From Euzebya sp. (GTDB lineage: Bacteria > Actinomycetota > Nitriliruptoria > Euzebyales > Euzebyaceae): DNA of 64,000 nt. The translations under genes and the position numbers were made by a program. The notes below the pieces were generated by a model. The model was given only the letters and a program-made list of their open reading frames with translations. It made no database searches and was not told where the DNA came from. How positions within the stretch are numbered: position 1 is the stretch's first letter; each line of letters starts with the position of its first letter. Location of the stretch: assembly GCF_964222135.1 (NCBI RefSeq), contig NZ_CAXQBR010000067.1:62001-126000 (forward strand), read 5' to 3'. Shown here in pieces: positions 18,527 through 63,613 of this stretch.

Positions 18527-18546
18527 CCCTCCATCTGGTCGAACGG

Positions 18547-19350
18547 TCAGCGCGACGTCGCGGGATCGTCCTCGACGGTCGCCGCTGTGTCCGTCGTCGG
18601 CTCGAACCGGTCGCCCAGGTAGACCGCCTCGGCCTTGGCGACCAGGTCGGCGTCGGACCCGGACAGCTCCTCGACGATGCGTCCGTTCGCCATCAGCAGG
18701 ACCCGGTCGGCCAGCTCGGCGGCCAGCTCCAGGCGCTGCTCGACGACGAGGACGGCCAACCCCCCGCGGGTGAGGTCCTCGACCACCTCGCAGACCCGAT
18801 CGATCAGCATCGGGGCCAGCCCGTTGCTGGGCTCGTCGAGCATGATCACGGTCGGCCGCAGCATCAGGCACCGCGCGACGGCGAGGAACTGCTGCTGCCC
18901 GCCGGAGAGCGCCCCGGCGGGTGCGCGCAGCATGGTGCGGAGATCGGGGAAGGCCTCCAGGGCCTCCTCGACGGCCACGCCGGAGCCAGCTGCCACCGCG
19001 GCGACCTCGAGGTTGTGCTCGACGGTCATGTTGGGGAACACGTTGCGGTCCTGGAGGCAGTGCGCCAGGCCGGCACGCACCCGGCCGGCGGGGGCGAGCG
19101 ACGAGATCGTGGTGTCGCCGATGCGGATGCGGGTGTCCGCCGCGCACCGCTCGAAGCCGCTGATGCCGCGCAGCAGGCTGGTCTTCCCGGCACCGTTGGC
19201 GCCGAGGATCATCGTGCAGCTCCCGGGCGGCGCCTCGAACGAGACCCCGCTGACGGCGGTGACCCCGCCGTACTGGACCGACAGGCCCTCCACCGCCAGG
19301 GTCTGGGGCGCCGTGCCGCGCGTCGGGCGGCGCCTGCCGAAGGGCCTCAC
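18547..19350 (-). CDS. livF: Branched-chain-type ABC transporter ATPase, LivF
   Basis: ATPase subunit of the second Liv importer (267 aa). It has Walker A GANGAGKTSLLRGISGF, signature LSGGQQQFLAVARCL and Walker B VIMLDEPSNGLAP. The C-terminus carries about 25 extra residues. The start chosen is GTG 19350, which overlaps the LivMG stop by 4 bases (GTGA); a frame extending to 19446 would overlap the neighbour by 100 bases and is not credible. The CoA ligase follows. Family certain; transported compound unknown. Confidence 0.9.
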   Translation of the reverse strand: MRPFGRRRPTRGTAPQTLAVEGLSVQYGGVTAVSGVSFEAPPGSCTMILGANGAGKTSLLRGISGFERCAADTRIRIGDTTISSLAPAGRVRAGLAHCLQDRNVFPNMTVEHNLEVAAVAAGSGVAVEEALEAFPDLRTMLRAPAGALSGGQQQFLAVARCLMLRPTVIMLDEPSNGLAPMLIDRVCEVVEDLTRGGLAVLVVEQRLELAAELADRVLLMANGRIVEELSGSDADLVAKAEAVYLGDRFEPTTDTAATVEDDPATSR

Positions 19351-21143
19351 GGTCCGGTCTCCACCGCAGGGGTCGCCCGACGACCGCCGAGGAAGACCCG
19401 TTGGACGTCGGCCTGCTGGCTCAGCTCCTCGGGGTTCCCCGCCCACAGGACCGATCCGCGGTCCAGCACGACGACCCGGTCGACGAGGCCGCGGACGAAC
19501 TCGAGGTGGTGCTCGACGAGGACCAGGCCGACGTCGAGGGCCGCGATCGCCCGCACGACCTCTCCCAACCGCTCGATCTCCGCCGGGGACAGGCCGGCGG
19601 CGGGCTCGTCGAGGAGCAGCACGTGGGGGGCACGGGAGACGGCCATGGCGATCTCGAGGAACCGCAGCTGGCCGTGGGAGAGGCTCCGCGCGTCCTTGTC
19701 CGCGACATCGGGGCCGCAGCAGCGCGCGAGGATCCGCTCGCCCAGGTCGGCGAAGAAGTCCTGGCGCGCCGGAGACCCACCGGTCGGCGGGTGCTGGCGT
19801 CCCAGGGCGAGGTGCTCGGCGACGCTGAGCCGACCGAAGGTGTTCGGGGTCTGGAACGTGCGGCCGATGCCGTGTTGGGCGGCCAGGCGGGCATCGGCCC
19901 GCTTCAACCGGTGACCCGACACGATCACCTCCCCCTCCGTGGGGGCGTAGTAGCCGGAGGCGAGGTTCAGCAGGGTGGTCTTGCCCGACCCGTTGGCGCC
20001 GACCAGGCCGACGACCTCCCCCGAGTCGACGGTCACGTCGACGCCGTCGAGCGCCCGGACGCCGCCGAAGCGGATGGCGACCCCCCGCAGCTCGAGCAGC
20101 GGTCCGGTGCGGTCCTCGGTCCCCGACGGGGGGACGTCGGCGTCGAGCACCTCCAGGTGCAGGTCCTCGGTTCCCTCAGAAGCCGATCCCACCTCGGGAC
20201 CGAGGCTCGGCAGGCTGACCTTGGAGACCAACCCGTCGGGCAGCAGGCGGATCATCAGAACGACCAGGGACCCGTACAGGAAGGGCTGGAGGCCTTCGAT
20301 GTGGAGCTCCACCGACAGGTACAGCGGCAGGGCGGTCAGCACGAACCCGCCGAGGACCGGCCCGACCCTGGACCCGGCGCCGCCGAGGATGACCATCAGC
20401 AGGAGGGTGACGGAGACCCAGATGCTGATGCTGCCGGGCGAGACGAACGCGTAGACGTAGACGAACAGCGCACCACCGACCGCGCCGAGCATGTTCGCGA
20501 GGCCCAGCGACAGCATCTTGAGCCGGGTGGCGTCGATGCCGATCGCGACAGCGCCGATCTCCGATTGGCCGACGGCCATGGAGGACAACCCGATGCGGTG
20601 GCGTCTGAACGCCGCGTGGAACCAGTAGGCCAACCCGGTGACGACGAGGATGACGCCGCCGAGATGTAGCTGGGAGAGCGTCCCGCCGCCGTCGAACCAC
20701 CAGTGCGCGGTGACGCCGGCGATTCCGGAGAAGCCCCTCGTCAGGTCGTTCCAGCCGATGGCCAGGTCGCCGACCAGCACCGCGAAGCCCAACGTCATCA
20801 TCGCGAGACCGATCAGGTCGGTGACGCGCAGGGCCGCTAGGCCGAGGAGCAGGCCGCTCGCGAAGCCGATCATGATCGCGAGGACCACACCGAGCCACCA
20901 GGGCCAGCCGTACTCGACGCTGGTGATCGCCGACACGTACGCGCCGAGGGCGAAGGCGCCGGCCTGTCCGATGGACAGCACCCGGGTGAAGCCCACCGGG
21001 ATGTTCAACCCGAGCACGGCGATGACGTTGACGGCGCCCAGCATGATGACCAGCGCGGGGAACGACTGGGGTCCGAGGAGCGCGATGGCCCCCGTGCCCA
21101 GGAGGACGGCTGCGACCACTCCCAGCGACTCGCGTCGGGACAT
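19347..21143 (-). CDS. LivM permease-LivG ATPase fusion protein
   Basis: Second permease-ATPase fusion in the window (598 aa). Residues about 1-310 carry the LivM membrane segments (NVIAVLGLNIPVGFTRVLSIGQAGAF region and LLMVILGGAGSRVGPVLGG). Residues about 345-595 are LivG, with Walker A GANGSGKTTLLNLASGYY near 380, LSHGQLRFLEIAMAV as signature region and LLLDEPAAGLSP as Walker B. Both halves look complete. It starts 4 bp after the livH stop and overlaps livF. Its architecture matches that of the 3029-4960 product, though the two sequences differ substantially. Confidence 0.9.
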   Translation of the reverse strand: MSRRESLGVVAAVLLGTGAIALLGPQSFPALVIMLGAVNVIAVLGLNIPVGFTRVLSIGQAGAFALGAYVSAITSVEYGWPWWLGVVLAIMIGFASGLLLGLAALRVTDLIGLAMMTLGFAVLVGDLAIGWNDLTRGFSGIAGVTAHWWFDGGGTLSQLHLGGVILVVTGLAYWFHAAFRRHRIGLSSMAVGQSEIGAVAIGIDATRLKMLSLGLANMLGAVGGALFVYVYAFVSPGSISIWVSVTLLLMVILGGAGSRVGPVLGGFVLTALPLYLSVELHIEGLQPFLYGSLVVLMIRLLPDGLVSKVSLPSLGPEVGSASEGTEDLHLEVLDADVPPSGTEDRTGPLLELRGVAIRFGGVRALDGVDVTVDSGEVVGLVGANGSGKTTLLNLASGYYAPTEGEVIVSGHRLKRADARLAAQHGIGRTFQTPNTFGRLSVAEHLALGRQHPPTGGSPARQDFFADLGERILARCCGPDVADKDARSLSHGQLRFLEIAMAVSRAPHVLLLDEPAAGLSPAEIERLGEVVRAIAALDVGLVLVEHHLEFVRGLVDRVVVLDRGSVLWAGNPEELSQQADVQRVFLGGRRATPAVETGP

Positions 21144-21147
21144 GGCC

Positions 21148-22026
21148 TCAGACCCTCCGCGCGTGGGCGGGCGGGAACGCGCCGCCCGGCCGGACCAGGT
21201 ACACGGCCAGCAACAGCGCGAAGAGCATCAGGTTGCTCCACGACGGTCCGAGCGCCACCCCGGCCGCGTGGACCGTGAGGCCCACCGCCGTACCACCGAC
21301 CAGTGCGCCGGGCAGGCTCCCCACGCCGCCGAAGGCCAGCGCGACGAACCCGTTGAAGGTCAGCAGGATCCCGATCTCCGGTGACGCCAGGAAGATCGGG
21401 GCGATCAACCAGCCGGTGATGGCGGCCACGACCGCGGACAGCACCGCTGACAGCCGGGACATCGCCGCGACGTCGACCCCGACGCTGCGGGCACCGTCGA
21501 AGTCCTGTCCGACGGCCTCCATCATCTTCCCGACGCGGCTGTGGCGGTAGAGCAGGCCGATCAGCGTGATGAGCACCGGGGCTGCCAGGATCAGCGTCAG
21601 CGTCACCCCGGTGATCCGGAACGGCCCGAGCGTCATCGGCTGGTACCCCAGGTGCCAGGGGAAGTTGGCGGGCACGCCGCCGCTGATGATGTGCGCCACC
21701 TCTTCGATGACGATGCCGACGCCGAACGTGGACAGGATCCACGTCAAGGACGACGCGGTCCGGATGAACGGGCGGATCGCCGCCCACTCCTCCACCAGGA
21801 CCGCGACGATGACGATGACCAGGCTGCCGGCGAAGGCCGCGACGGGAGACCAGCCGAGGCCGACCAGGCCGACCACGGAGACCGGGGCCAGGGACACCAG
21901 GCCGCCGTGGGCGAAGTTGACGACGCCGGTGACGCGTTCCATGACGCTGAACCCGGCCGCGATCAGGGCGTAGGCCATGCCGATCCCGAGGCCGGGGATC
22001 AGGACGTCGTTGACGAAGTTGATCAT
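21148..22026 (-). CDS. livH: Branched-chain-type ABC transporter permease, LivH
   Basis: Membrane permease subunit of the second Liv importer (292 aa). It begins MINFVNDVLIPGLGIGMAYALIAAG and has the family motif GVVNFAHGGLVSLA, then repeated hydrophobic segments ending LLLAVYLVRPGGAFPP. It is flanked by the binding-protein gene (30 bp upstream) and the LivMG fusion (4 bp downstream), forming a standard Liv operon order SBP-H-MG-F. Confidence 0.9.
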   Translation of the reverse strand: MINFVNDVLIPGLGIGMAYALIAAGFSVMERVTGVVNFAHGGLVSLAPVSVVGLVGLGWSPVAAFAGSLVIVIVAVLVEEWAAIRPFIRTASSLTWILSTFGVGIVIEEVAHIISGGVPANFPWHLGYQPMTLGPFRITGVTLTLILAAPVLITLIGLLYRHSRVGKMMEAVGQDFDGARSVGVDVAAMSRLSAVLSAVVAAITGWLIAPIFLASPEIGILLTFNGFVALAFGGVGSLPGALVGGTAVGLTVHAAGVALGPSWSNLMLFALLLAVYLVRPGGAFPPAHARRV

Positions 22027-22056: not shown

Positions 22057-23451
22057 TCAGCCGCCGGTCCCCACCGCCACGCACGCACCGGTCTCGCAGC
22101 TGTACTGCGCCGCCATCATCCCGAAGTCCGCGGCGTCCTCCTGACCGAGCCGGTCGTCGGCGCTGTACTCGTACGCGCCGCGGGAGGCGTCGACGGTCAG
22201 CCCGGCGTCCAGCACCTCGCGGATCGCCGCGGGGTCGGTCGAGCCCGCTTGCTCGATTGCCGCGTTGACCACGAGGACCATGTCGAAGGCGGCTGCACCG
22301 ACGAACGAGGCAGTGCCTGCCTGCGCGGCCCCGGTCTCCTCGGCGAAGCGGGTCCAGAACTCGACGGCCAGCCCTTCCGGCTCGTCACCCTCTGCGTCGA
22401 CCAGCATGGTGTTGGGGACCACGCCGGCTGCCAGCCGGTCGAGGTTCTCCTCGCCCAGAGCCTCGAGGACCGGCGCCTCGACCATGCCGAGCGGACCGGC
22501 GACGTGCGGGGTCCAGTCGATCTGCCGCAGGCCGTTGACCAGCTGCACCGCGTCGCCGTAGGCGGCCCAGGTCAGCAGCAGGTCGGTGTCGCCGGCGTCC
22601 TGTCGGAGCTGGCGGAGCTGGGCGGAGAGGTCCGGCGCCCCGGGCTGGAACGACATGGAGACCAGGTCAACGCCCATCTCCTCAGCGGCCGCCTCGGTGG
22701 CCTCGGCCTGCGACTCGCCGTAGCCCGAGAGGGGGTAGGCCAACGCGACGGTCGTCCCCGGGTCGGCTTGGGCGACGAGCCACTCGAGGTGCGGCCGAAC
22801 GGTGACCTGGCCGTACTCGTAGGCGTGGAACATCCAGGGGTACTCACAGTCAGCGCAGGCGTTGTCCCACAGCTCGGGGGTGGCGGCGGTGGTGAAGCCC
22901 AGGACGCCGGCTTCGTTGAGGACCGGCTGCATGGCGAGGGCCGACTCGCTGGTCGACGGCGAGAGGATCGCAACGAGGCTCTCGTCGTTGGTGAGCTCCC
23001 GGGCCTGGGAGACGACCGTCGCGGGATCTTCGGCGCTGTCGCGGACCTCGAGCTCGTAGCTGACGCCGCCTGCAGCCAACCCCTCGGACTCGAGGTAGTC
23101 GATCGCCGCGCGCGCACCGGCTTCGCTGGGCTCGCCGAACACCGTCGCCGTGGGGCCGGTCAGGGCCGCGAGCACGGCGAGCGTCACCGTCTCGCCCGAG
23201 AGGTCGGCCGTGGAGCTGTCGTCAGCGGCGGCGGGCTCTTCGGCACCGGTTTCGGCAGGCGCGTCCTCCGTCCCGTCAGCATCTGGCGCCGCGTCCTCGG
23301 TGGCCGTATCGCCCGCCGCCTCCTCGACTTCTGTCGCTCCGTCCGCGGTCTCCTCATCATCGCCCGAGTCCGACCCCGCACATCCTGTGGCGAGGAGCGT
23401 CACGGCCGCGAGCGCAGCAGCGGCCCGGCGCAGAACACGGTTCGTTCGCAT
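22057..23451 (-). CDS. ABC transporter substrate-binding lipoprotein (Liv type)
   Basis: Extracytoplasmic binding protein of the second Liv importer (464 aa from ATG 23451). The signal peptide MRTNRVLRRAAAALAAVTLL ends in the lipobox ATGC, followed by a long acidic Glu/Asp/Ala linker (to about residue 90) and then a type I periplasmic-binding fold (LAVLAALTGPTATVFGE; ILSPSTSESAL). ATG 23451 is preferred to the in-frame ATG at 23475 because only it has an AGGG box about 7 bases upstream. A TTGACA hexamer and an AATC-N8-GATT inverted repeat lie about 100 bp upstream. Cys pairs (CADC; CETGAC) occur within the domain. Ligand unknown. Confidence 0.88.
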   Translation of the reverse strand: MRTNRVLRRAAAALAAVTLLATGCAGSDSGDDEETADGATEVEEAAGDTATEDAAPDADGTEDAPAETGAEEPAAADDSSTADLSGETVTLAVLAALTGPTATVFGEPSEAGARAAIDYLESEGLAAGGVSYELEVRDSAEDPATVVSQARELTNDESLVAILSPSTSESALAMQPVLNEAGVLGFTTAATPELWDNACADCEYPWMFHAYEYGQVTVRPHLEWLVAQADPGTTVALAYPLSGYGESQAEATEAAAEEMGVDLVSMSFQPGAPDLSAQLRQLRQDAGDTDLLLTWAAYGDAVQLVNGLRQIDWTPHVAGPLGMVEAPVLEALGEENLDRLAAGVVPNTMLVDAEGDEPEGLAVEFWTRFAEETGAAQAGTASFVGAAAFDMVLVVNAAIEQAGSTDPAAIREVLDAGLTVDASRGAYEYSADDRLGQEDAADFGMMAAQYSCETGACVAVGTGG

Positions 23452-23550
23452 GTCATGCCCTGTCTCGTCGTGCATGTCGGATCGACATGGCTCGGCTCAT
23501 CTCTGCAGGGAGACCGCCCGCGCGGGCACCCGCATCTATACAAGCTACGC

Positions 23551-23566
23551 AATCATGATAAAGATT
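23551..23566. promoter_or_regulatory. AATC-N8-GATT inverted repeat, putative operator (copy 3)
   Basis: In a 146-bp gap otherwise without genes, AATC (23551-23554) and GATT (23563-23566) form an inverted repeat with an 8-base AT-rich spacer. It lies between a minus-strand TTGACA (23570-23575) and the binding-protein gene. The same arrangement occurs twice at 29.93-30.01 kb, and the 9-mer GCTGTCAAC that contains the TTGACA complement is identical at both places. A regulator binding site is inferred; the protein is not known. Confidence 0.5.
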
Positions 23567-23569
23567 TGC

Positions 23570-23575
23570 TGTCAA
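23570..23575 (-). promoter_or_regulatory. -35-like TTGACA before the second Liv operon
   Basis: On the minus strand this reads as a perfect TTGACA. The hexamer 17 bases downstream (TTGCGT) is a poor -10, so the promoter would need an activator or uses another spacing. It lies about 120 bp upstream of the ATG at 23451 and next to the inverted repeat at 23551-23566. Confidence 0.35.
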
Positions 23576-23597
23576 CGGCTTTCGCAGAACGTCGCGG

Positions 23598-24404
23598 TCA
23601 GCCGTCGCCCACCGTGTGGAGGGGGTAGACCACGCCGGCGCCGCCGTCGACGCGGAGGTCGACCCCGGTGACGTAGGCCGCCGCGTCCGAGAGCAGGAAC
23701 GCCACCGCCCCCGCGATGTCGTCGACGTCGCCGAGATGGCCCGCGGGGATGCTCGCGCCGATGCGGTCGAGGGTCTCCGCCGGGCTCGATGCGGCGATCC
23801 GGGGGGTGCGGATGGCCCCCGGCGACACCGTGTTGGCGCGGACGCCGTGCGGGGCGTTCTCGAGCGCGAGCGTCCGGGCCAGCGACCGCAAGCCGGCCTT
23901 GCCGGCGCCGTAGGGCCCGTGCAGGGGGGCGGATGTGGCGCCGCTCAGCGACGAGATGAACACCACCGATCCACCGCCGTCGCGCAGGTGCGGCAGCACT
24001 GCGCGGGAGAGGTAGAAGGCGTGGTCGAGGGTCAGCTCCGCTCCTCGACGCCACACCTCGGGCTCGATGCGGTCCAAGGTGCGCCAGAGCTCGTCGGGCC
24101 ACATGCCGATGATGTCGACTAGCCCGTCGAGTCCGCCGAGCTGGTCGGCGGCCTGGTCGACGACCCGCTCGCAGTCCGCCGCTCGGGTCAGGTCCCCCAC
24201 CAGGCCGATCCCCGAGGTCCGGTCGGCGATGGCGCGGGCTCGGTCGGGGTCGACGTCGGCGCAGGCCACGGTGCCGCCGAGCGCGTGGATGGCCGTGGAC
24301 GTCGCCGCGCCCATGCCCTGGCCGGCGCCCGCGACCAGGACGCGTCGCCCGTCCAGGCGGAACCGTGATGCCCAGGTCTGCTCGTCGTGTGGTGTCACCG
24401 CCAC
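23598..24404 (-). CDS. Short-chain dehydrogenase/reductase
   Basis: NAD(P)-dependent SDR (268 aa). The nucleotide-binding motif is slightly altered, AGAGQGMGAATS rather than TGxxxGIG, near residues 25-36. The catalytic site is intact: ISSLSGA with the Ser, then YGAGK. A GxxxGMGxA-type variation is common in SDRs of degradative operons. The start is GTG 24404. It lies 6 bp after the SnoaL-like gene's stop and is the last gene before the operator-containing gap upstream of the second Liv operon, so it probably belongs to the thioesterase/SnoaL transcription unit. Substrate unknown. Confidence 0.86.
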   Translation of the reverse strand: MAVTPHDEQTWASRFRLDGRRVLVAGAGQGMGAATSTAIHALGGTVACADVDPDRARAIADRTSGIGLVGDLTRAADCERVVDQAADQLGGLDGLVDIIGMWPDELWRTLDRIEPEVWRRGAELTLDHAFYLSRAVLPHLRDGGGSVVFISSLSGATSAPLHGPYGAGKAGLRSLARTLALENAPHGVRANTVSPGAIRTPRIAASSPAETLDRIGASIPAGHLGDVDDIAGAVAFLLSDAAAYVTGVDLRVDGGAGVVYPLHTVGDG

Positions 24405-24410
24405 GACGGC

Positions 24411-24800
24411 CTACCGGGGTGCGATCTGGATCTCGCGGCGGGCGAAGACCCACCGGCCGTCGCGGTGGACCAGCTCGTCGGCGTACCGGCCCGCCTGGAC
24501 GATCTGCCACCCTTCGCCCACGGGTGGGGCGACCAGGTACCAGTCGGAGGTGGCGGTCGCGCGGTCGCCGTCGACGTCGATGTGGGTGTTCGCGATCAGG
24601 TGGCGGTCGCGGGGGTGGTCGGCCAGCGCCGCGGTCAGGGCGTCGATGGCCTCGTCCACTCCGTGGCAGGTGCGGCTGGTGAGCACGTACGTGGTGTCAG
24701 CGTCGAAGATGTGCCGCAGGCGGTCGTACTCGCGGTCGTCGACGGCGGTGGCGTAGACGGCCATGGCGTTGCGGATGGATTCCTCGGGGGTGGTGGGCAC
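24411..24800 (-). CDS. SnoaL-like / NTF2-fold protein
   Basis: Small 129-aa protein of the cystatin-like alpha+beta barrel (NTF2/SnoaL) type. Recognisable pieces are an N-terminal helix ESIRNAMAVYATAVDDREYDRL, the strand FDADTTYVL, and a C-terminal pair of strands ending GRWVFARREIQIAPR. Members include steroid delta-isomerases, ring hydroxylase beta subunits and many hypothetical dehydratase-like proteins. Placed between an SDR and a TesB thioesterase it may isomerise or dehydrate a catabolic intermediate (inference). The start is GTG 24800; 25 bp separate it from the thioesterase. Confidence 0.78.
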   Translation of the reverse strand: MPTTPEESIRNAMAVYATAVDDREYDRLRHIFDADTTYVLTSRTCHGVDEAIDALTAALADHPRDRHLIANTHIDVDGDRATATSDWYLVAPPVGEGWQIVQAGRYADELVHRDGRWVFARREIQIAPR

Positions 24801-24825
24801 GTGGGCACCTCTCTGGTCGGTTGGG

Positions 24826-25677
24826 CTACATGACCCCGGACGACGCGCCCCGCGCGGTCACGTGGTCGGGGAAGCGGCGGAGCATTGCGTCCTGTGCGTA
24901 GGAGGCCACCAGCTGGCCGGCCGCGGTGAACAGCTGCCCGCGCCCGTACACCCGGCCCGCGCCCGCCCAGGTGCACTCGGTGGCGATGAGCAGCCAGTCG
25001 GATGCGGCGATGGGCTGGTGGAAGGAGAGGGTGTGGGTGATGACCGCGGTGGACACGACCTCGTGCGCCATCCGCAGCGACAGGCCCTCGTGAGACCGCA
25101 GGGCGGTGGGCAGCAGCAGCGGGTCGGTCAGCCAGGCGGCGAGGGCCTGGTGGCGGACCCGGTCCAGCTCTGCCACGTCGGGCCAGCGGCACCACAGGTC
25201 CAGTCGCATGTCGCCGGTGGCTCCGGTGTCGTCGAGGTCCAGGCCGCCGACGACGCGGACCTCCGCGCCCGGTGCCTCGAACACGTCGGTCGCGGGCGCC
25301 TGCTCAGGCGCGCCCGCCGGCGGCGGGGGCGGGCCGTGGCGCAGGACGTCGTCCTCCTCGGTGTCGAGCAGGACGGTCGCGACGCACACGCGCCGGTCGC
25401 CCTGGCTGACCGTGACGGTGGCGGTGGCCATCGTCCGTCCGACGGCGACCGGGTCGACGCGGAGCTGCAGCGGGTCCTCCGGCGACCCGGGCCGCGGGAA
25501 GGCGGCGTGGACCGACCGGACGGTCTTGCTCGGGTCGACGCCGGCGGCGGCGACGACGACCTGGCCGAGGAGCTGGCCGCCGAAGACCGGCCGCCCCTCC
25601 CCCAGCGCGGCGCTGTGGGCGACGAAGGCGTCCGGCCCGTCCGGGCGCAGCTCCAGGGACTGCAGGGGTGTGGTCAC
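24826..25677 (-). CDS. Acyl-CoA thioesterase II (TesB-like), double hotdog
   Basis: Hydrolyses acyl-CoA to acid and CoA (283 aa). The first hotdog begins with GRPVFGGQLLGQVVVAA and KTVRSVHAAFPRPG. The second ends with the TesB-like SFHQPIAASDWLLIATE, then GRVYGRGQLFTAAGQLVASYAQDAMLR. The start chosen is GTG 25677, preceded by a clear AGGAGAGGG box; the longer open frame upstream is a shadow. A small gene diverges 38 bp away. Within the catabolic run it may salvage CoA from dead-end intermediates. Confidence 0.86.
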   Translation of the reverse strand: MTTPLQSLELRPDGPDAFVAHSAALGEGRPVFGGQLLGQVVVAAAGVDPSKTVRSVHAAFPRPGSPEDPLQLRVDPVAVGRTMATATVTVSQGDRRVCVATVLLDTEEDDVLRHGPPPPPAGAPEQAPATDVFEAPGAEVRVVGGLDLDDTGATGDMRLDLWCRWPDVAELDRVRHQALAAWLTDPLLLPTALRSHEGLSLRMAHEVVSTAVITHTLSFHQPIAASDWLLIATECTWAGAGRVYGRGQLFTAAGQLVASYAQDAMLRRFPDHVTARGASSGVM

Positions 25678-25715
25678 GGCTGCCCTCTCCTGATCGGGGT
25701 TGGTAGGTTGCCGAC

Positions 25716-25943
25716 ATGGCCACCTCTGGACCGAGCGGGACGACGACGCGGACGCTGCTGTACCTGGAGTTCGCCTTGCCCGAGGCGGACCGGGCCCGCC
25801 TGGACGCCCACCTGGCGGCCGGGTCGCGGTCGCTGACCGCGGTGGTCCGCGCGGCGATCGAGGCCGAGCTGGCCGCCGCCACCGACGGTGAGGTGACCTC
25901 GATCGACCCGCGGCACACCTCCGGCGTCGCCCACGGTCACTGA
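25716..25943 (+). CDS. Small protein, possible ribbon-helix-helix fold
   Basis: A 75-aa protein on the plus strand inside an otherwise minus-strand region. After about 12 residues it reads TLLYLEFALPEADRARLDAHL, then SRSLTAVVRAAIEAELA: a beta strand followed by two helices with the small-residue turn, like CopG/RHH DNA-binding proteins. The ATG at 25716 is 38 bp from the divergent thioesterase start, so it could repress that operon, but this rests only on the predicted fold. It ends 7 bases inside the next, convergent gene. I do not recognise a specific family. Confidence 0.5.
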   Translation: MATSGPSGTTTRTLLYLEFALPEADRARLDAHLAAGSRSLTAVVRAAIEAELAAATDGEVTSIDPRHTSGVAHGH

Positions 25944-26602
25944 CCGCACGGCATCCCCCACAGGGCGGCCAGCTCGACGTCGTGGGCGATGACCGCGTCC
26001 AGGTCCCCCGCACGGTCCGGTCCGGCCAGGGCGGCCGCCAGCCGCACCGATGGGCCAGGCGGTCCCGCGGCGCCGACAGCATCTAGCCGCTCGTCGACTG
26101 CCCGTGCGGGATCGGCCGCGACTGCGGTGATCACGCCGAGCTGCTGGGCGACGTCGGCGGTGAGGCCCCGGCCCGTGATGGCCAGATCGACCACGGTCGA
26201 CGGTGGCAGCACCCGGCGGAGCAACCAGCCGGTCCCCGGCGCCGGCGGGGCGGCGCTCGCGTAGGGCACGAGCTCCGCCGCGGGGGCCAGCACGACGACG
26301 TGGGCCAGGATCGCCAGCACCGCAGGCGTGCCGACCAACCGGCCGTCGGCGCACGCGGCGACCAGCGCCGGCGTGCGGGCCAGCGCCCGGATCAGCGGGG
26401 CGACGACGTCGCCCGCGCGGGCGCGCCGGGTCTCGGGGGACGGATCGGCGACGGGGTCGGTCAGGTCGCCCCGCAGGCGCAGGCGAAGGATGGTGTCGGG
26501 GGACCGGCCGGCCCCGGCGACTGCTCGGGTCAGCGCGACGAGCGCCTGGTCGTCGCAGACCTCGCCCGCCACGTCGATCGTGCGCATCGGGAGGTGGGTC
26601 AC
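25937..26602 (-). CDS. Degenerate crotonase-fold protein
   Basis: A 221-aa protein that follows the crotonase layout without its usual sequence markers. TPALVAACADGRLVGTPAVLAILAHVVVLAPAAEL corresponds to the crotonase AAVxGxxxGxGxxLALxxD segment, and GTGWLLRRVLPPSTVVDLAITGRGL to the GGxxRLPR region. The oxyanion-hole and catalytic Glu positions are not evident, so it is probably non-catalytic or performs another reaction. The start is GTG 26602, one base from the stop of the next crotonase gene (26604). Tandem placement suggests divergence from, or partnership with, that neighbour. Confidence 0.65.
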   Translation of the reverse strand: MTHLPMRTIDVAGEVCDDQALVALTRAVAGAGRSPDTILRLRLRGDLTDPVADPSPETRRARAGDVVAPLIRALARTPALVAACADGRLVGTPAVLAILAHVVVLAPAAELVPYASAAPPAPGTGWLLRRVLPPSTVVDLAITGRGLTADVAQQLGVITAVAADPARAVDERLDAVGAAGPPGPSVRLAAALAGPDRAGDLDAVIAHDVELAALWGMPCGQ

Positions 26603-26603
26603 G

Positions 26604-27377
26604 TCAGCGTCCGATGAAGCGCGGTGGCCGCTGCTCGAGGAAGGCCGCGAACCCCTCACGGGCGTCGGCGGTGCCCAGCAGCGCGGTCACCCGGTCGCGG
26701 TCGCGGGCCGTGGCGACCGACAGGGGCACCTCTTCGACGTCAGCCAGGGACGCCAGCACCGACCGCACCGCCAGCGGCGGGCGGGCGGCGACCTCGGCGG
26801 CCAGGGCGACGCCGGCGGCGACGGTCCGCTGCTGGGGGACCACGCGGCTGACCAGCCCGAGATCCCATGCGGTCCAGGCGTCGACGGTCTGGCCGGCGAG
26901 GGCGACCGCGGCAGCGCGCAGCCGTCCGGCGACCCGCCCCCACCGCTGCACCCCGCCGGCGCCGGGCAGGATGCCCAGGCCGACCTCCGGCAGCCCGAAC
27001 ACCGCCCCGTCGGCGGCGACGACCAGGTCGCAGGCGAGCGCGACCTCGCACCCACCGCCCAGCACCGGGCCGGCGACCGCGGCGACCACGGGCACGGGCA
27101 CGTCGTCGAGCGCCTGCCAGAACCGGTCGCCGTCACGGGCGGCCATGGCCGTGGTCGGGTCGGCGGCCAGCTCACCGATGTCGCCGCCGGAGAGGAAGGT
27201 GTCGTCCCCGCCGGTCAGGACGACGGCGCGGATGTCGCGGTCGGCCGCCACGGACTCGAGTGCGGCGGTGGCCTGGACCCGGGCCCGGTGGCTGAGGGCG
27301 TTGCTGGTGGAGGGGTCATCGACGCGGATGACCGCCACCTGGTCGTGGGTGGTGGTGGAGACGCGCAGCGCGGTCAT
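26604..27377 (-). CDS. Enoyl-CoA hydratase/isomerase family protein
   Basis: Crotonase-fold enzyme (257 aa) with VAVIRVDDPSTSNAL, GGDDTFLSGGDIGEL (oxyanion strand), AAVAGPVLGGGCEVALACDLV, and PEVGLGILPGAGGVQRWGRVAG. By eye, the first catalytic Glu (PEVGLG) is present, and the second position (AAAVALAG) is Ala. That pattern is commoner in isomerases and related lyases than in strict hydratases. The ATG at 27377 overlaps the SDR stop by 4 bases. The larger open frame upstream is a shadow of the SDR. Confidence 0.85.
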   Translation of the reverse strand: MTALRVSTTTHDQVAVIRVDDPSTSNALSHRARVQATAALESVAADRDIRAVVLTGGDDTFLSGGDIGELAADPTTAMAARDGDRFWQALDDVPVPVVAAVAGPVLGGGCEVALACDLVVAADGAVFGLPEVGLGILPGAGGVQRWGRVAGRLRAAAVALAGQTVDAWTAWDLGLVSRVVPQQRTVAAGVALAAEVAARPPLAVRSVLASLADVEEVPLSVATARDRDRVTALLGTADAREGFAAFLEQRPPRFIGR

Positions 27378-28090
27378 CCTGCCGCGGCCCCTCCCGCCTC
27401 GACCCGGCGGGTGGCGAAGGGACCCCTGTCGGTCGCGCGCATGGTGATCTGGCGGATCACGACCTCCGGCGGGAGCTCGCACAGCCAGGCGACGACCTCG
27501 GCGACGTGGTCGGGGGTCAGCGCCGCAGCGGCCATCGTCGCGGGGTTGTCGATCATCTCGGTCTCGACCAGGCCGGGGACGACGATGTGGACGCCGATGC
27601 CGTCCCGCTCGACCTCGGCGGCCACGGATTGGGCCAGGGCGTTCACGCCGGCCTTCGACGTCGAGTAGGCCGACATCCCGGCGAGACCCTTCAGGCCGGC
27701 CACCGAGGAGATGTAGACGATCTTCGCGCCGGCCCGCATCTTCGTCAGGGCGGCGCGGGTGACCAGGTAGCTGCTGCGCAGGTTGATCCGCAGCACCTCG
27801 TCGAAGGTGTCGACGGGCTGGTCGCGGACGGTCGTCCCGTCCAGCACGCCGGCGGCGTGGACCAGGACGTCGCAGCGCTCGACGGCGTCGAACAGCCGGG
27901 CCACGTCGGCATCGGTCCCCGCGTCGGCGGGGACGGCGCGGGCGCCGATCTCGTCCGCGGCGGCGTGGAGCGGCTCGGGGCGGCGGGACGTCAGGACCAC
28001 GTCGTAGCCCTGGGCGACCAGCGCGGCGCCGCAGGCCCTTCCGATGCCGCCGCTGCCGCCGGTGACGACGGCGACCCTCTGGGCGCTCAT
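27374..28090 (-). CDS. Short-chain dehydrogenase/reductase
   Basis: SDR of 238 aa with TGGSGGIGRACG (residues 10-21), VLVHAAGVLDG, and the catalytic ISSVAG...YSTSK. It closely resembles the 59723-60424 product (shared VVTGGSGGIGRACG-type start, HAAGTLDG, the same GPFA-type C-terminus), so the two are paralogues in separate cassettes. The ATG at 28090 overlaps the upstream crotonase stop by 4 bases. It sits between two crotonase genes, which suits oxidation of a 3-hydroxyacyl-CoA (inference). Confidence 0.87.
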   Translation of the reverse strand: MSAQRVAVVTGGSGGIGRACGAALVAQGYDVVLTSRRPEPLHAAADEIGARAVPADAGTDADVARLFDAVERCDVLVHAAGVLDGTTVRDQPVDTFDEVLRINLRSSYLVTRAALTKMRAGAKIVYISSVAGLKGLAGMSAYSTSKAGVNALAQSVAAEVERDGIGVHIVVPGLVETEMIDNPATMAAAALTPDHVAEVVAWLCELPPEVVIRQITMRATDRGPFATRRVEAGGAAAG

Positions 28091-28932
28091 TCGTCGCCGG
28101 CGGGCCGGGCGGTCCGGCGGGGTGTGGACACAAGGATGGGCTGGCCGCTGACCACCTGGTTGTGGGCGTGTGACAGCTGGTGCAGCGCGAAGGTCGCGTC
28201 GATGCCGGCGCGCTGGCCCATCGCCTCCTCGCAGCGGTTCACGGCCTGCTTGGCCAGGGCCAGCCCGAAGGCGGGCTGGCCGCCGATCCGCTCGGCCATG
28301 TCCAGTGCCGTGTCCAGCAGCGCATCGCCGGTGACGACGCGGTTGACCATGCCCAGCCGGTGGGCGCGGTCGGCGTCGATGGCCTCGCCGAGGAACAGGA
28401 ACTCCTTCGCCTGCCGCGGTCCCAGCTCCCACGGGTGGCGGAAGAACTCCACGCCGGGGCAGCCCAGGGCGACGACGGGGTCGCTGAAGAAGGCGTCGTC
28501 GGCGGCGACGATCAGGTCACAGGACCAGGCCAGCATCAGCCCGCCGGCGATGCAGCCGCCCCGCACCGCTGCGATGGTCGGCTTGGGCAGGTCGTGCCAG
28601 CGGCGGCACATCCCCAGGTACATCTCCATCTCGTGGGACATCCACCGCTCCGCTCCCTCCTTGTCGGTGTGGTCCCACCACGTGGAGCGCCGGGTGTAGG
28701 GCACGTCGTAGTCGACCCCCGGCGAGCCGAGGTCGTGGCCCGATGAGAAGTGGGGGCCGGCACCGGTGAGCACGGCCACGCGCACGTCGTCGTCCTGGGC
28801 GAAGCGCTGGAAGGCGTCGTCCAGGGCGTAGAGCAGCGCGGAGTTCTGGGCGTTGCGGTACTGCGGACGGTTGAGGGTGATGATCGCGGTGGTGCCGCGG
28901 ACCTCGTAGAGGACCGGTTCCTCGTCAGCCAT
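28087..28932 (-). CDS. Enoyl-CoA hydratase/isomerase family protein
   Basis: Crotonase-fold enzyme of 281 aa. Markers are AIITLNRPQYRNAQN, GAGPHFSSGHDLGSPG (oxyanion strand), AAVRGGCIAGGLMLAWSCDLI, then CPGVEFFRHPWELGPRQAKEFLFLGE. The insertion after GHDLGSPG (about 35 residues, rich in Trp and charged residues) sets it apart from the two other crotonases here. The first catalytic Glu is replaced by Val (DPVVALG); the second (AKEFLFLG) is kept. The start is ATG 28932, 25 bp after the Rieske gene's stop, so it is cotranscribed with that oxygenase. Confidence 0.85.
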   Translation of the reverse strand: MADEEPVLYEVRGTTAIITLNRPQYRNAQNSALLYALDDAFQRFAQDDDVRVAVLTGAGPHFSSGHDLGSPGVDYDVPYTRRSTWWDHTDKEGAERWMSHEMEMYLGMCRRWHDLPKPTIAAVRGGCIAGGLMLAWSCDLIVAADDAFFSDPVVALGCPGVEFFRHPWELGPRQAKEFLFLGEAIDADRAHRLGMVNRVVTGDALLDTALDMAERIGGQPAFGLALAKQAVNRCEEAMGQRAGIDATFALHQLSHAHNQVVSGQPILVSTPRRTARPAGDE

Positions 28933-28957
28933 GGGGGTTCCGTTTCGTCGTGGTCGG

Positions 28958-29914
28958 TCAGGCTCGGGCTTCGGCCACCCCGGGATAGAACTGGTCCGCC
29001 CACCGGCGGAAGTCCATGATCGCCCCCTCCCCCGAGGCCAGGCGGGGCTGGTCGTGGTGGACCTTGTGCTCCCAGATCGGGATGTCCTGGTTGGCCTGGC
29101 GCTGGAACTCCGCCGCCATCTTGCGGGCGCCGTTGGTCAGCTCGCCGTCGACGTGGGGCAGCAGGAAGCTGTAGCGGGCGTCGACGATCCCCGGCTCGAC
29201 CGGGGTGACGGTCCACAGCACGACCCCGTCGACCAGCCCGTGGGGGCGGACGACGTCGAGGCCGAGGCCCCACAGCTCGGACTCGATGGACCCGTCCACC
29301 TCGCCGCGGCCGGTCTGCATCGTGACGCTGGCGTCCGCGCGGAACATCACGCCCTTCTCGACGATCTCGACCGCGCCGAAGCCGGACACGCCGTGGACGT
29401 ACTGGAAGTGGGCGATGTCGACGGTGTTCTCCATGATCTCCACGGGGTGGCTGGAGAACCGGTAGCGCGCCTCCTCCGGCGTGTACCACATCAGGTCGTC
29501 GCGGCTGAGCTCGGGCAGCGAGGGCGGCTCCCACGTCGGTTCCTCATGCCCCGGCGGCCCGTACCAGCACAGGATCGCCGGGCCCAACTCGCGGGTCGCC
29601 CACGGCCGCAGGCGGGCACCGCGGTTGACGTTGTCGCGGTAGGGGACGCGGACGTTCTGGCCGGTGCAGTCGAAGCGCCACTCGTGGAACGGGCACACCA
29701 CCGCGTCACCGTCGACGAACCCGCCGTAGCCGATGTGGGCGCCCAGGTGGGGGCAGTGGGCGTCCATCACCGTGACCCGCCCGCCGTCGCCGCGGTAGGC
29801 GATCAGGTCGACCCCGAAGCTGCGGAGGGGCACGACCTGGCCTGCGGCGACCTCGTCGGCATACGCGACCTGGTACCACCCCACCGGGATGGGCAGCGAC
29901 GACGTGGCAGTCAT
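28958..29914 (-). CDS. Rieske non-haem iron oxygenase (KshA-like)
   Basis: Oxygenase component of a two-component Rieske system (318 aa). The [2Fe-2S] ligands are CPHLGAH (residues about 54-60) and CPFH (about 72-75). The mononuclear iron site follows in ENTVDIAHFQYVHG (about 159-172), giving the D-x2-H-x4-H pattern of the KshA/VanA-type group. Length and layout resemble KshA, which hydroxylates 3-ketosteroids at C9; other substrates (terpenoids, phthalates) are possible. No reductase partner is in the window. The ATG at 29914 has a GAATC-N8-GATTC repeat 20 bp upstream and a TTGACA/GAGAAT promoter overlapping it. Confidence 0.85.
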   Translation of the reverse strand: MTATSSLPIPVGWYQVAYADEVAAGQVVPLRSFGVDLIAYRGDGGRVTVMDAHCPHLGAHIGYGGFVDGDAVVCPFHEWRFDCTGQNVRVPYRDNVNRGARLRPWATRELGPAILCWYGPPGHEEPTWEPPSLPELSRDDLMWYTPEEARYRFSSHPVEIMENTVDIAHFQYVHGVSGFGAVEIVEKGVMFRADASVTMQTGRGEVDGSIESELWGLGLDVVRPHGLVDGVVLWTVTPVEPGIVDARYSFLLPHVDGELTNGARKMAAEFQRQANQDIPIWEHKVHHDQPRLASGEGAIMDFRRWADQFYPGVAEARA

Positions 29915-29933
29915 GGACCGAGCCTTTCCTTTG

Positions 29934-29949
29934 AATCTTAGTGATGATT
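29934..29949. promoter_or_regulatory. AATC-N8-GATT inverted repeat, putative operator (copy 1)
   Basis: AATC (29934-29937) and GATT (29946-29949), extended to perfect 5-base arms GAATC/GATTC. The repeat overlaps the proposed -10 (29947-29952) of the Rieske operon, a position expected for a repressor. It shares 15 of 20 bases with copy 2, including TTTGAATCT. Confidence 0.55.
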
Positions 29950-29975
29950 CTCAGCAGGCGCCGATGCGCTGTCAA
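29947..29975 (-). promoter_or_regulatory. Promoter of the Rieske oxygenase operon
   Basis: On the minus strand TTGACA (29970-29975) is followed after 17 bases by GAGAAT (29947-29952). Spacing and the perfect -35 support a housekeeping-type promoter about 35 bp before the ATG at 29914. The -10 lies inside the inverted repeat at 29934-29949. Confidence 0.5.
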
Positions 29976-29998
29976 CAGACCGGGTGCAGAAAGTTTTG

Positions 29999-30014
29999 AA
30001 TCTATATATTGATT
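29999..30014. promoter_or_regulatory. AATC-N8-GATT inverted repeat, putative operator (copy 2)
   Basis: AATC (29999-30002) and GATT (30011-30014) with the spacer TATATATT... (8 bases). It lies 32-47 bp before the GTG start at 30046 of the divergent acyl-CoA dehydrogenase gene. Copy 1 and copy 2 are 65 bp apart, one proximal to each divergent gene, so one regulator could control both directions. Confidence 0.55.
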
Positions 30015-30045: not shown

Positions 30046-31143
30046 GTGATCGGTCCAGTCGGGCCGGGGACCCCCGGCGAGCTCACCGTCCGCTTCAACG
30101 ACTACGCGTTGTCCGAGGAGCAGGAGGCCCTGGGGGCGATGGTCACCCAGCTGCTCGGACAGGTGGTGACCCCCGATGTGGTGCGGGCGTGCGAGCCCGA
30201 GGGGTTCGACCCGTCGGTGTGGGCGTCGCTGGCCGACGCGGGGATCGTCGGGTTGTCACTGCCCGACGTGATCGGGGGGCAGGGGGCGGGAATCGTCGAG
30301 CTCGTCGTCGCCGCCGAGCAGCTCGGTCGGGTCCTGGCACCGGCACCGGTCGTCGAGCACGCGGTGGCGGCACGGGCGCTCCTCCGCACGGGCGCCGCCG
30401 GCGACATGGCCGCCGCGCTGGCCGACGGGTCCACGATCGTGTCGCTGGCGCCGCTGTCGGCCCGACGTCGCGGGCCGCAGCTCGTGCCGGGCGGGTCGGT
30501 GGCCACGACCGTGCTGGCCCTGGACGGCGACGTGCTGTGGACCTGGACCCGCGACGGCCCGCCGCCGCAGGTGGCCAACCAGGCGGCCGCCCCCCTGGCG
30601 GGGTGGGACCCCGACGATCCCGCCGGGCGCGCCGCGCAGGTGGCCGACGGAGACGCCGCCCGGGCGGCCTGGACCCTCGCCGTGGCGGAGTGGCGCGTCG
30701 GCGTCGCCGCGCTGCTGGTGGGCCTGGCCGACGGTGCGGCACGGCTGGCCCGGACCTACGCCGTCGAGCGGGAGGCGTTCGGCCGGTCGATCGCTCGGTT
30801 CCAGGCCGTCAGCCACGCCCTGGTCGACCAGCACCTGGCGATCGAGCCGGCCCGCAACCTGGCGCGCAAGGCTGCCTGGTTCCTCGACCACGAGCGCGAC
30901 GCACGGCCAGAGCTGCCTGCCATGGCCCACCTGACGGCGACGCGCTGCGCCCGCGAGGTCACCGCCAGTGCGGTGCACGTGCACGGGGGTGTGGGGATCA
31001 CCCTGGAGGCCGACGTCAGCCTGCACTACCGCCGCGCCGCCGCGGTGGCGCAGGTCGGCGGCAGCTCGGTCGAGGTCCTGCGTGACGTCGCGGCCGACCT
31101 GAGACCCCGTTTCCAGCACGCCCACGAGGTGGCCGCCCGATGA
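30046..31143 (+). CDS. Acyl-CoA dehydrogenase, catalytic-type subunit
   Basis: Flavin-dependent acyl-CoA dehydrogenase subunit (365 aa). The N-terminal helical part begins FNDYALSEEQEALGAM; the C-terminal part has REAFGRSIARFQAVSHALVD and the motif HVHGGVGITLEADVSLHYRRA, whose Glu matches the catalytic-base position by eye. The FAD-binding SEP/GSD segment is poorly conserved and should be supplied by the partner gene that starts inside its stop (ATGA at 31140). This repeats the catalytic-plus-partner layout at 7.2-9.5 kb. The start is GTG 30046; no strong ribosome-binding site is seen. It diverges from the Rieske gene with an operator-like repeat before it. Confidence 0.86.
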   Translation: MIGPVGPGTPGELTVRFNDYALSEEQEALGAMVTQLLGQVVTPDVVRACEPEGFDPSVWASLADAGIVGLSLPDVIGGQGAGIVELVVAAEQLGRVLAPAPVVEHAVAARALLRTGAAGDMAAALADGSTIVSLAPLSARRRGPQLVPGGSVATTVLALDGDVLWTWTRDGPPPQVANQAAAPLAGWDPDDPAGRAAQVADGDAARAAWTLAVAEWRVGVAALLVGLADGAARLARTYAVEREAFGRSIARFQAVSHALVDQHLAIEPARNLARKAAWFLDHERDARPELPAMAHLTATRCAREVTASAVHVHGGVGITLEADVSLHYRRAAAVAQVGGSSVEVLRDVAADLRPRFQHAHEVAAR

Positions 31144-32315
31144 ACTTCGCGACCGTGCAGCTGACCGGGGCCCAGCAGGCGTTCATCGACGACGTCCGCG
31201 CGGTGCTGGAGGCCCACTGGTCCCCCGACCCCACGGCGATCGCCATGGACCACGAGCGCATGCCCGAGGGTCTGCGCCGTGCGATAGCGGACCGCGGCTG
31301 GCTGCGCCCGACCGCGCCGGTGGCCGAGGGTGGCGGTGGCCTGGACCCGCTGGAGGCCCGGCTGCTCGAGCTGCTGCTCGACGCCTACCTGGTGCCCACC
31401 GGCGGGGACACGCTGATCGTGTCGGTGGTGCCGGCGATCCAGGCGTTCGGGTCGGACGAGCTGACGCGCACAGTGCTGCCCCAGCTGGCCAGCGGGCATG
31501 CGACGGTGTGCCTCGGCTACTCAGAGCCCGACTGCGGGTCGGACATGGGGGCGGTGCGGACCCGGGCGGTGCAGCGGCCGGACGGGGATTGGGTCATCGA
31601 CGGCGCGAAGATGTGGACGTCGTTCGGACATGAGTCCGACTACGTGTTCCTGCTGACGCGAACCGGGGCGCCGGAGGACCGCAAGCGTGGATTGACCATG
31701 TTCCTGGTGCCGATGGACAGCCCCGGCGTCGAGTGGCGGCCGGTCCAGGGCATGGCGAGGGTCCGCACCAACATCGTCTTCTTCTCCAACGTCGTGGTCC
31801 CGGACACCCACCGGCTGGGTGAGGTCGGCGGCGGCTGGGAGGTCCTGTCCGCGCCGCTGGCCGCCGAGCACGGCCGCGATGGACAGGCCGACCCGTATGC
31901 GGACATCAACGGCGTCATGGGCACGATGTTCAGCCGCACCCTCGAGCGGCTCGTGGAGCACACCGCGGTGTGGGCGATGACACCCGCAGGTCCCGACGGG
32001 TCCAGGCCGATCGACGACGAGCACCTCGAGCTGGCCCTGGCCGACGCGCTGCTGGACGTCGAGCTGTGCCGGGGCGCGCCGGGCGAGATGGGCAAGCCGC
32101 TGTCGGCTGAGGCCCTGCTGCGCCACGCCGACGCGCTGGCGGACCTGACCGCCCCGTTCGGGGTGCTGGACCACGGCGCCGTCGGCGCGGCCGCAGCCGG
32201 CGTGGTCAGCGAGGCCCGCCTGCACGCACCGGCGACCAAGATCTACGGCGGCACGTCGGAGATCTACCGCAACAACATCGCCGCTGGCGAGCTCGGCCTT
32301 CCACGCCCGTACTGA
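31140..32315 (+). CDS. Acyl-CoA dehydrogenase, partner subunit
   Basis: Partner subunit of the second probable heteromeric acyl-CoA dehydrogenase (391 aa). It contains the flavin segment CLGYSEPDCGSDMGAV, then DGAKMWTSFG, and near the C-terminus IYGGTSEIYRNNIAAGELGLP. No GGxGxxxE catalytic segment is visible; the equivalent region reads LDHGAVGAAAAG. It overlaps its partner by 4 bases. Known mycobacterial alpha2beta2 enzymes of cholesterol side-chain breakdown have this division of labour; the substrate here is not known. Confidence 0.86.
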   Translation: MNFATVQLTGAQQAFIDDVRAVLEAHWSPDPTAIAMDHERMPEGLRRAIADRGWLRPTAPVAEGGGGLDPLEARLLELLLDAYLVPTGGDTLIVSVVPAIQAFGSDELTRTVLPQLASGHATVCLGYSEPDCGSDMGAVRTRAVQRPDGDWVIDGAKMWTSFGHESDYVFLLTRTGAPEDRKRGLTMFLVPMDSPGVEWRPVQGMARVRTNIVFFSNVVVPDTHRLGEVGGGWEVLSAPLAAEHGRDGQADPYADINGVMGTMFSRTLERLVEHTAVWAMTPAGPDGSRPIDDEHLELALADALLDVELCRGAPGEMGKPLSAEALLRHADALADLTAPFGVLDHGAVGAAAAGVVSEARLHAPATKIYGGTSEIYRNNIAAGELGLPRPY

Positions 32316-32398
32316 CCGGCCCGGCCAGGTGGGCCGGTACAGCACGTCCAGTCATCGATGTGCCGGAATCGTCACAGCCGCATCTACCTGTGGGGTGC

Positions 32399-32410
32399 GA
32401 CAACATTGTC
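32399..32410. promoter_or_regulatory. hipB operator-like palindrome 1 (GACAACATTGTC)
   Basis: Inverted repeat GACAA-CA-TTGTC, 62 bp before the hipB GTG. A second palindrome of the same GACA-N4-TGTC form lies 38 bp downstream. Paired palindromes upstream of a HipB-type repressor are usual for toxin-antitoxin autoregulation. Confidence 0.5.
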
Positions 32411-32436
32411 ACGCCACGGACGGGGCAGTAGCGTGG

Positions 32437-32448
32437 GACAGTACTGTC
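32437..32448. promoter_or_regulatory. hipB operator-like palindrome 2 (GACAGTACTGTC)
   Basis: A perfect 12-base palindrome ending 11 bases before the GAGGAGG ribosome-binding box of hipB. With the palindrome at 32399-32410 it defines the consensus GACA-N4-TGTC, the likely HipB binding site. Confidence 0.55.
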
Positions 32449-32471
32449 ACCCAGACACGAGGAGGTCGCCG

Positions 32472-32696
32472 GTGGAGCGGACGTTCACGATCCGGACCGG
32501 CCAGGACCTGGGCGCGGCGTTGGCGGAGATCCGTCGTGATGCCGGTCTCACCCAGCAGGAGTTCGCCGAGCGGGTCGGCGTGTCCCGCTCCTACCTGTCG
32601 AAGGTCGAGACGGGGAGGACCACCCGCCTCATCGAGCACCTGTTCACCGCGCTGCGGCGTGCGGGCGCCACGGTGACGGTCACCTGGACGTCGTGA
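32472..32696 (+). CDS. hipB: HipB-like antitoxin, XRE-family HTH protein
   Basis: Small DNA-binding antitoxin (74 aa). The helix-turn-helix reads IRRDAGLTQQEFAERVGVSRSYLSKVETGR (residues about 17-46), followed by a C-terminal beta strand GATVTVTW as in HipB. The GTG at 32472 is chosen over the upstream ATG at 32358 because it has a GAGGAGG box 6 bases before it and gives the normal HipB length. It overlaps the start of hipA by 4 bases (GTGA at 32693-32696). Two palindromes lie upstream. Confidence 0.8.
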   Translation: MERTFTIRTGQDLGAALAEIRRDAGLTQQEFAERVGVSRSYLSKVETGRTTRLIEHLFTALRRAGATVTVTWTS

Positions 32697-33992
32697 CCCC
32701 ACGGCCCGCCGCACTGGAGGTCGCCATCGACGGGCAGGTCGTCGCCGACCTCACCGAAGGTCGCGGGCCGCAGGTCAACCTCCGGTACCGCGCCGACACC
32801 GTGGCGGCCGACGGCAACCAACCGTGGCTGTCCTGCTCGCTTCCCGTCCGCAGCCGTCCGCACGATGCCCGGCTGTTCCTCGCCGGCCTGCTGCCCGAGG
32901 GCCGCCACCTGGAATCCGTCGCCGCCAGAGCCGGAGTGCTCACGACCGACGTGTTCGGCCTGCTGGCCCGCTTACGGGCGGGACGTCGCCGGCGCCCTGG
33001 TGATCGGTGACACCACAGCTGACCGCAACCCCCACACCGTCCCCTACGACGATGTGGCCCTGGCAGAGAGCGTCGGCCGCGTGGCAGAGGAGTCCTTCGA
33101 CCTCGCTGACGACTCCGAGCTGTCCCTGGCCGGGCTGCAGAACAAGCTGCTGCTGGTGGAGACCCCCGACGGGTGGGCGCGGCCGGCCGAGGGGTACGCC
33201 TCCACCCACACCCTCAAGGTCGAGGATCGTCGCTTCGACGGCCTGGCCGCAGCCGAGGCGGCATGCCTGTCCCTCGGCCGCGCCGTGGGGGTCACCACCG
33301 TCCACGCAGAGGCCACGACGATCGGCGGCATCCCCGTCGTCATCGTCGAGCGCTTCGACCGCGCCTTGGGCGAGGGCGGGGAGGTCCGGCGCATCCACCA
33401 GGAGGACGCCTGCCAGGCCCTCGGCGTCGATCCCGAACGCATGCACGTCGACGCGGGGGGCAGGCCCAGGCGGATGGGCAAGTACCAGGTCGGCGGCGGC
33501 CCGTCGTTCGCCGACATCGCGCAGCTGCTCGACCGCTTCGCCGCCGATGCGGTCGAGGAGCACTGTCGCCTGCTGGCGCTGGCCACGTTCACCGTCGCCA
33601 TCGGAAACGGCGACGCGCACGGCAAGAACGTCGGACTGCTGCACCCGACGCCGGACCGCATCGAGTTGGCACCGGCTTACGACACCGTCCCGACGGCGCT
33701 CTGGCCCACCCTCGCGGATCGAGCAGCGATGTTCGTCAACGGCCGATCCCTGCTGTCGGAGGTCACCGGAGAGGACCTGGTCATCGAGGGTGCGGTCAAG
33801 TGGGGCATCTTGCGCATCGACGAAGCCGAGGAGATCGTCGGCACGGCCCTCGATGCCCTGGAGGCCGCCGTGACCGACCCTGCTCGTGATCTCGGCAAGC
33901 ACCCGGTCATCGAGCGGCTCCGGGGCTACGTCAGGTCGCGTGTCGACCAACTGCGGTCGTCGATGTGGGGCGGACTGTCGCACCGGCCCTGA
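32693..33992 (+). pseudogene. hipA: HipA-like Ser/Thr kinase toxin, frameshifted
   Basis: Toxin kinase of the HipBA module, interrupted by a single-base frameshift. The frame from GTG 32693 gives the N-terminal domain (LEVAIDGQVVADLTEGRG; LFLAGLLPEGRHLESVA) up to VFGLLAR and then ends at 33010. The following frame gives GRDVAGALVIGD, SLAGLQNKLLL, the catalytic loop IGNGDAHGKNVGLL and LAPAYDTVPT, to 33992. Deleting one T of the TT at 32972-32973 restores FGLLARYGRDVAGAL, exactly the family consensus, and would give 432 aa, the normal HipA length. Everything else looks intact, so the lesion is recent, phase-variable, or a sequence error. Confidence 0.8.
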
Positions 33993-62019: not shown

Positions 62020-62029
62020 CGGTCCCTCC

Positions 62030-63588: not shown

Positions 63589-63613
63589 GTCGCTCCCCTC
63601 GTGTCGGGCTGGG

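Follow-up and report, generated by a model that had tools for sequence, protein, structure and literature searches.

The window, by which we mean the whole 64,000-nucleotide stretch of Euzebya sp. DNA that was analysed, carries a steroid-like catabolic gene block between 15.2 and 32.3 kb. Judging from gene order and spacing, the block apparently consists of three transcription units, with one copy of an AATC-N8-GATT palindrome at each promoter. The Liv-uptake operon is read from the minus strand (23475 down to 15184). The first gene after palindrome copy 3 codes for a Liv periplasmic binding protein (22057-23475) and is followed by genes for a Liv permease (21148-22026), a Liv permease-ATPase fusion (19347-21143), an ABC ATPase (18547-19446, start uncertain), an AMP-binding acyl-CoA ligase (16907-18550, start approximate), an SDR dehydrogenase (15992-16906) and, at the very end, an FCD-domain GntR regulator, P0001 (15184-15984). 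The second unit, also on the minus strand (29914 down to 23598), opens after copy 1 with a Rieske oxygenase gene whose product has a KshA-type C-terminal domain (28958-29914). Genes for an enoyl-CoA hydratase, an SDR protein and a second enoyl-CoA hydratase (26604-28932), an acyl-CoA thioesterase (24826-26082, start uncertain), a SnoaL-like protein (24411-24800) and an SDR dehydrogenase (23598-24404) complete this operon. The third unit lies on the plus strand after copy 2 and contains two acyl-CoA dehydrogenase genes (30046-31143 and 31140-32315). They are directly followed by a HipB/HipA-like gene pair (32358-33992), and the palindromes GACAACATTGTC (32399) and GACAGTACTGTC (32437) are found upstream of the HipB-like gene.

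The half of the cluster on the other side of the block, between 10262 and 15116, lacks the motif. It contains a CoA-transferase gene beside genes for an OYE/FadH-type reductase and a divergent F420-dependent LLM oxidoreductase, the latter scoring above the cut-off of TIGR03559. A second FCD regulator, P0002 (58919-59722, minus strand), aligns with P0001 at 41% identity and is encoded at the end of a parallel Liv operon that shares the synteny of the first. This operon occupies positions 58919-63970 and extends into positions 126001-145999 of contig C67. Its genes code, in order, for a Liv binding protein, a permease, the product of an open reading frame at the place of the permease/ATPase fusion, an ATPase, an SDR protein, a ligase, another SDR protein and the FCD regulator. 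Glycosyltransferase and polymerase genes between 44000 and 56000 have a reduced GC content of 58-64%, and this region looks like an acquired surface-polysaccharide island.

Position and distribution of the palindromes

Copy 1, AATCTTAGTGATGATT (29934-29949, plus strand), precedes the Rieske operon and can be extended to an 18-bp palindrome, GAATC-N8-GATTC (29933-29950). Copy 2, AATCTATATATTGATT (29999-30014, plus strand), is located before the acyl-CoA dehydrogenase pair and contains TATATT in its spacer. Both were found by pattern matching. Copy 3, found by pattern matching and oriented by alignment, reads AATCTTTATCATGATT on the minus strand (23551-23566) and lies 76 bp before the open reading frame of the Liv binding protein. 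The original prediction had given these positions and the 8-bp spacers exactly, and our recount agrees that copies 1 and 2 share 15 of 20 bases. Its placement of copy 3 also holds, and this copy aligns better in the reverse orientation: read on the minus strand, copy 3 matches each of the other two at 13 of 16 positions, compared to 11 of 16 the other way round. With copy 3 so turned, the three sequences yield the longer consensus AATCTTWRTSATGATT.

The window contains exactly three matches to AATC-N8-GATT, where 0.16 are expected by chance, and none of 100 shuffled windows reached three matches. When the spacer of AATC-Nk-GATT was varied from 0 to 20 nucleotides, three matches were obtained at k = 8 and a single one over all other spacers together. 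A one-mismatch scan of the window was at chance level apart from the three exact sites. The genome-wide scan called for in the original prediction was carried out by pattern searches over the 5.06 Mb genome and retrieved four exact matches. Three of them are the window sites at the promoters of the block, and the fourth (contig C85:7832) lies within the final codons of an open reading frame; the reversed control pattern had no occurrences in the same 5.06 Mb. The more demanding pattern AATCW-N6-WGATT is matched perfectly at exactly three places in the whole genome, which are the window sites. The site is thus restricted to the three promoters of one catabolic block and is found essentially nowhere else in the genome.

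It had also been proposed that a 9-mer, GCTGTCAAC, which contributes TTGACA on the minus strand, is a shared element beside copies 1 and 3. The 9-mer is indeed present at both places. Since it lies 18 bp beyond copy 1 and 1 bp beyond copy 3, it was ruled out as a part of the common site. Beside copy 1, it provides the -35 box of a promoter-like sequence, TTGACA-N17-GAGAAT (29947-29975, minus strand), located 33 bp from the start codon of the Rieske gene. This assignment to the Rieske operon is by consensus match alone (10 of 12 positions); such a pair occurs about zero times in shuffled sequences. The second, -10-like hexamer is overlapped by copy 1. At copies 2 and 3, no recognisable promoter pair was found. 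The placement of sites over core promoters suggests repression.

The FCD regulator and its homologues

P0001 combines an N-terminal GntR winged helix (PF00392, E 3.1e-17, residues 20-77) with a C-terminal FCD effector domain (PF07729, E 2.1e-16, residues 113-239). No close relative of the Rieske protein was found in the scanned genomes: used as a probe, it found no relative on the contigs of this genome, and its matches in 101 related genomes were distant (37-38% identical). The sites were compared through homologues of the FCD regulator. In the order to which the window belongs, the sampled genomes contain few such homologues, but they are common in a Mycobacterium-like genus (46-50% identity). 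A scan of GTDB genomes with the FCD alignment yielded 80 homologous loci.

The original prediction had proposed comparing upstream regions in related genomes, and in this comparison the 8-spaced palindrome recurs before homologous regulators. Nine of the 80 loci contain AATC-Nk-GATT with k = 8 in the 200 bp before the FCD gene, and no locus contains it there with any of the 16 other spacers; the looser WATC/GATW form is present in 12 loci at k = 8 versus three over the 16 other spacers together. Mycolicibacterium (GCAATCCTTATAAGGATTGC), Actinocorallia (GTAATCCTTATAAGGATTTC) and Rhodococcus (TCAATCCTCACAAGGATAGC) provide examples. A matrix built solely from the three window sites scored at least 17 bits in 41 of 80 loci, whereas 200 column-permuted matrices reached this score in 8 loci on average and in 39 at most; at a threshold of 19 bits, 7 of 200 permuted matrices equalled it. 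The first 19 FCD homologues had no exact AATC-N8-GATT within 20 kb, and weaker forms were seen through the matrix only.

The nine exact loci are not all independent because many belong to one clade, although their genera, and the window itself, are widely separated. The exact palindromes are found mostly in a sister clade that holds P0002, a placement that is weak and comes from a quick tree, and homologues in P0001's own branch have mostly imperfect, asymmetric versions of the site. Mycobacterial homologues have weak versions upstream of the FCD gene and, at a distance of a few kilobases, also before acyl-CoA dehydrogenase or P450 genes. Other sites in the homologue loci precede genes for acyl-CoA dehydrogenases, enoyl-CoA hydratases, CoA-transferases, AMP-ligases and SDR proteins. 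A long palindrome, GCTATCTTGTACAAGATAGC, is carried by three mycobacterial FCD homologue loci, L054, L055 and L159, and in the first two it is directly upstream of the regulator gene. It has ATC-N8-GAT in common with the window sites and a canonical-looking GTAC at its centre; possibly, it is an intermediate form of the operator.

The DNA-reading residues were mapped by sequence alignment to PdhR and NanR and by the FadR numbering. Glu45 of P0001 and an Asp of P0002 occupy position 28 of the helix-turn-helix. The 80 homologues have Glu (53), Asp (22) or Ala (5) there, i.e., Glu or Asp in 75 of 80, and most other aligned FCD proteins of this genome have Arg or Gln. In the FadR subfamily, this position is usually Arg and goes with the G of the common operator TKGT-N2/3-ACMA, which has its GT and AC near the centre; Asp at the same position has been linked with a G/C pair, probably through contact with the C (PMC4494728). 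Arg at position 28 is typical, not universal, and does not define the subfamily, and P0001 lacks it. Likewise, the proposed operators are without central GT/AC boxes, a typical, non-defining feature with known exceptions. The half-site ATC(C/T), with a C at about the corresponding distance, would be consistent with an Asp-C contact. Proteins that are 60-70% identical can bind different motifs (PMC4494728), and the closest homologues of P0001 are only ~50% identical to it.

It seems fairly probable that P0001 represents a branch of actinobacterial FCD/GntR regulators that is widespread, has not been described before and is recognised by Glu or Asp at position 28, where the G of the canonical operator is read. 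Such regulators would use a different class of operators, ATC-N8-GAT palindromes, to control acyl-CoA catabolic blocks, with each regulator beside its own block. We found no earlier description of an AATC-N8-GATT operator in the open-licence literature. If such a branch exists, the operator would serve as a search key for assigning genes to the many FCD-controlled catabolic blocks of mycobacteria and other actinobacteria that are still uncharacterised, this block for a steroid-like substrate included. It would also be an instance in which the replacement of a single residue (Arg by Glu/Asp) accompanies a change of the operator.

Candidate readers of the sites

We consider it very likely that P0001, the FCD/GntR regulator encoded at 15184-15984, has its operators in the three palindromes and acts as an autoregulated, pathway-specific repressor. 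A P0001 dimer would read the two AATC half-sites, which lie on either side of the 8-bp centre, and, bound at core promoters, would block the Rieske operon, the acyl-CoA dehydrogenase pair and the Liv-uptake operon. Since the latter contains the P0001 gene, the regulator would also control its own synthesis. The putative effector, an intermediate of the pathway and most probably a CoA thioester from the operon's own ligase, would bind to the FCD domain and cause the release of P0001. The evidence is comparative throughout: the sites, their restriction to promoters and the homologues' promoters are read from sequence, and from these we infer that P0001 binds the sites, that it represses and does not activate, and what kind of effector releases it. 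The predicted control of ring hydroxylation, desaturation and uptake by one regulator is supported by the finding that exactly the three promoters of the block, and essentially nothing else in the genome, carry the site.

The original prediction had named the FCD proteins at both 15.2 and 58.9 kb as candidates. The former agrees with our results, as its gene sits in one of the three site-bearing units, closing the Liv operon behind copy 3, and its homologues have the same palindrome. It is unlikely that P0002 reads the sites, alone or together with P0001 in a cross-regulation of the two Liv operons. P0002 belongs to the same subfamily, has the Glu/Asp signature and groups with the homologues that have exact AATC-N8-GATT sites; its gene, however, lies outside all three site-bearing units, and a different, ATCTTTATAAA-type variant is found at its own operon and at the acyl-CoA dehydrogenase pair next to it. 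These operator-like sites are just outside the window, at window-equivalent positions 67714, directly upstream of the P0002 Liv operon, and 68549, between an enoyl-CoA hydratase gene and the acyl-CoA dehydrogenase pair. P0002 is a less likely reader of the three palindromes because the parallel Liv operon has these related sites of its own, in corresponding positions. When 144 kb of the contig was searched with a matrix made without P0002 sites, only the three window sites and the two places at 67714 and 68549 exceeded 15 bits. The sequence ATCTTTATAAAGAT, with up to three mismatches, occurs at five places in the genome, four of them in the two regulons. The regulons of the two paralogues thus seem to match, with operators that differ slightly between them.

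Reading by another local regulator, either the TetR protein (143-706) or the HipB-like protein (32358-32696), is quite improbable. Both are encoded within 30 kb, and the operator of HipB, TATCC-N8-GGATA, also has an 8-bp spacer; a 4-bp half-site with such a spacer fits some other helix-turn-helix families too. The TetR protein, which had been suggested for binding assays, was rejected as a reader since the motif does not recur beside its homologues: 13 loci (12 homologues and the window's own) hold a single WATC-N8-GATW match, which is GC-rich and chance-like. The HipB-like protein was rejected as well, as upstream of 32358 there are other palindromes and no AATC-N8-GATT. Chance palindromes are barely credible and were already disfavoured. 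Promoters are AT-rich in this 70% GC genome, so that AT-rich words concentrate there; yet only the 8-bp spacer recurs in the window, the genome's other promoters have no match, and the same spacing is seen upstream of homologous regulators.

Comparison with known regulators

Pathway-specific repressors of mycobacterial steroid and acyl-CoA gene blocks include KstR and KstR2. These are TetR-family proteins with different operators, whereas the reader proposed here, P0001, is an FCD/GntR protein. FadR, PdhR and LldR of the FadR/FCD subfamily share with P0001 a PF00392 winged helix, a PF07729 FCD domain, operon linkage and, as proposed for P0001, a palindromic operator and probable autoregulation. 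In contrast to their canonical TKGT-N2/3-ACMA (PMC4494728), the constant bases here are the outer AATC and GATT, 8 bp apart, and Glu or Asp replaces Arg at position 28. NanR and BioR are members of the subfamily that depart from the TKGT/ACMA rule (PMC4494728). They provide a precedent, but neither the direct repeats of NanR (TGGTATAW) nor the BioR site (TTATMKATAA) is an AATC-N8-GATT palindrome. AlkR of Pseudomonas aeruginosa (GntR/VanR, FCD) is a repressor of a catabolic oxygenase that binds over the -10 region and is released by acyl-CoA (PMC12042122). It resembles the proposed system in being an FCD protein, in the link to a catabolic oxygenase and in the site over the -10 region, with the repressor role being proposed for P0001, and it differs in its operator, ATTGTCAGACAAT, and in the class of substrate.
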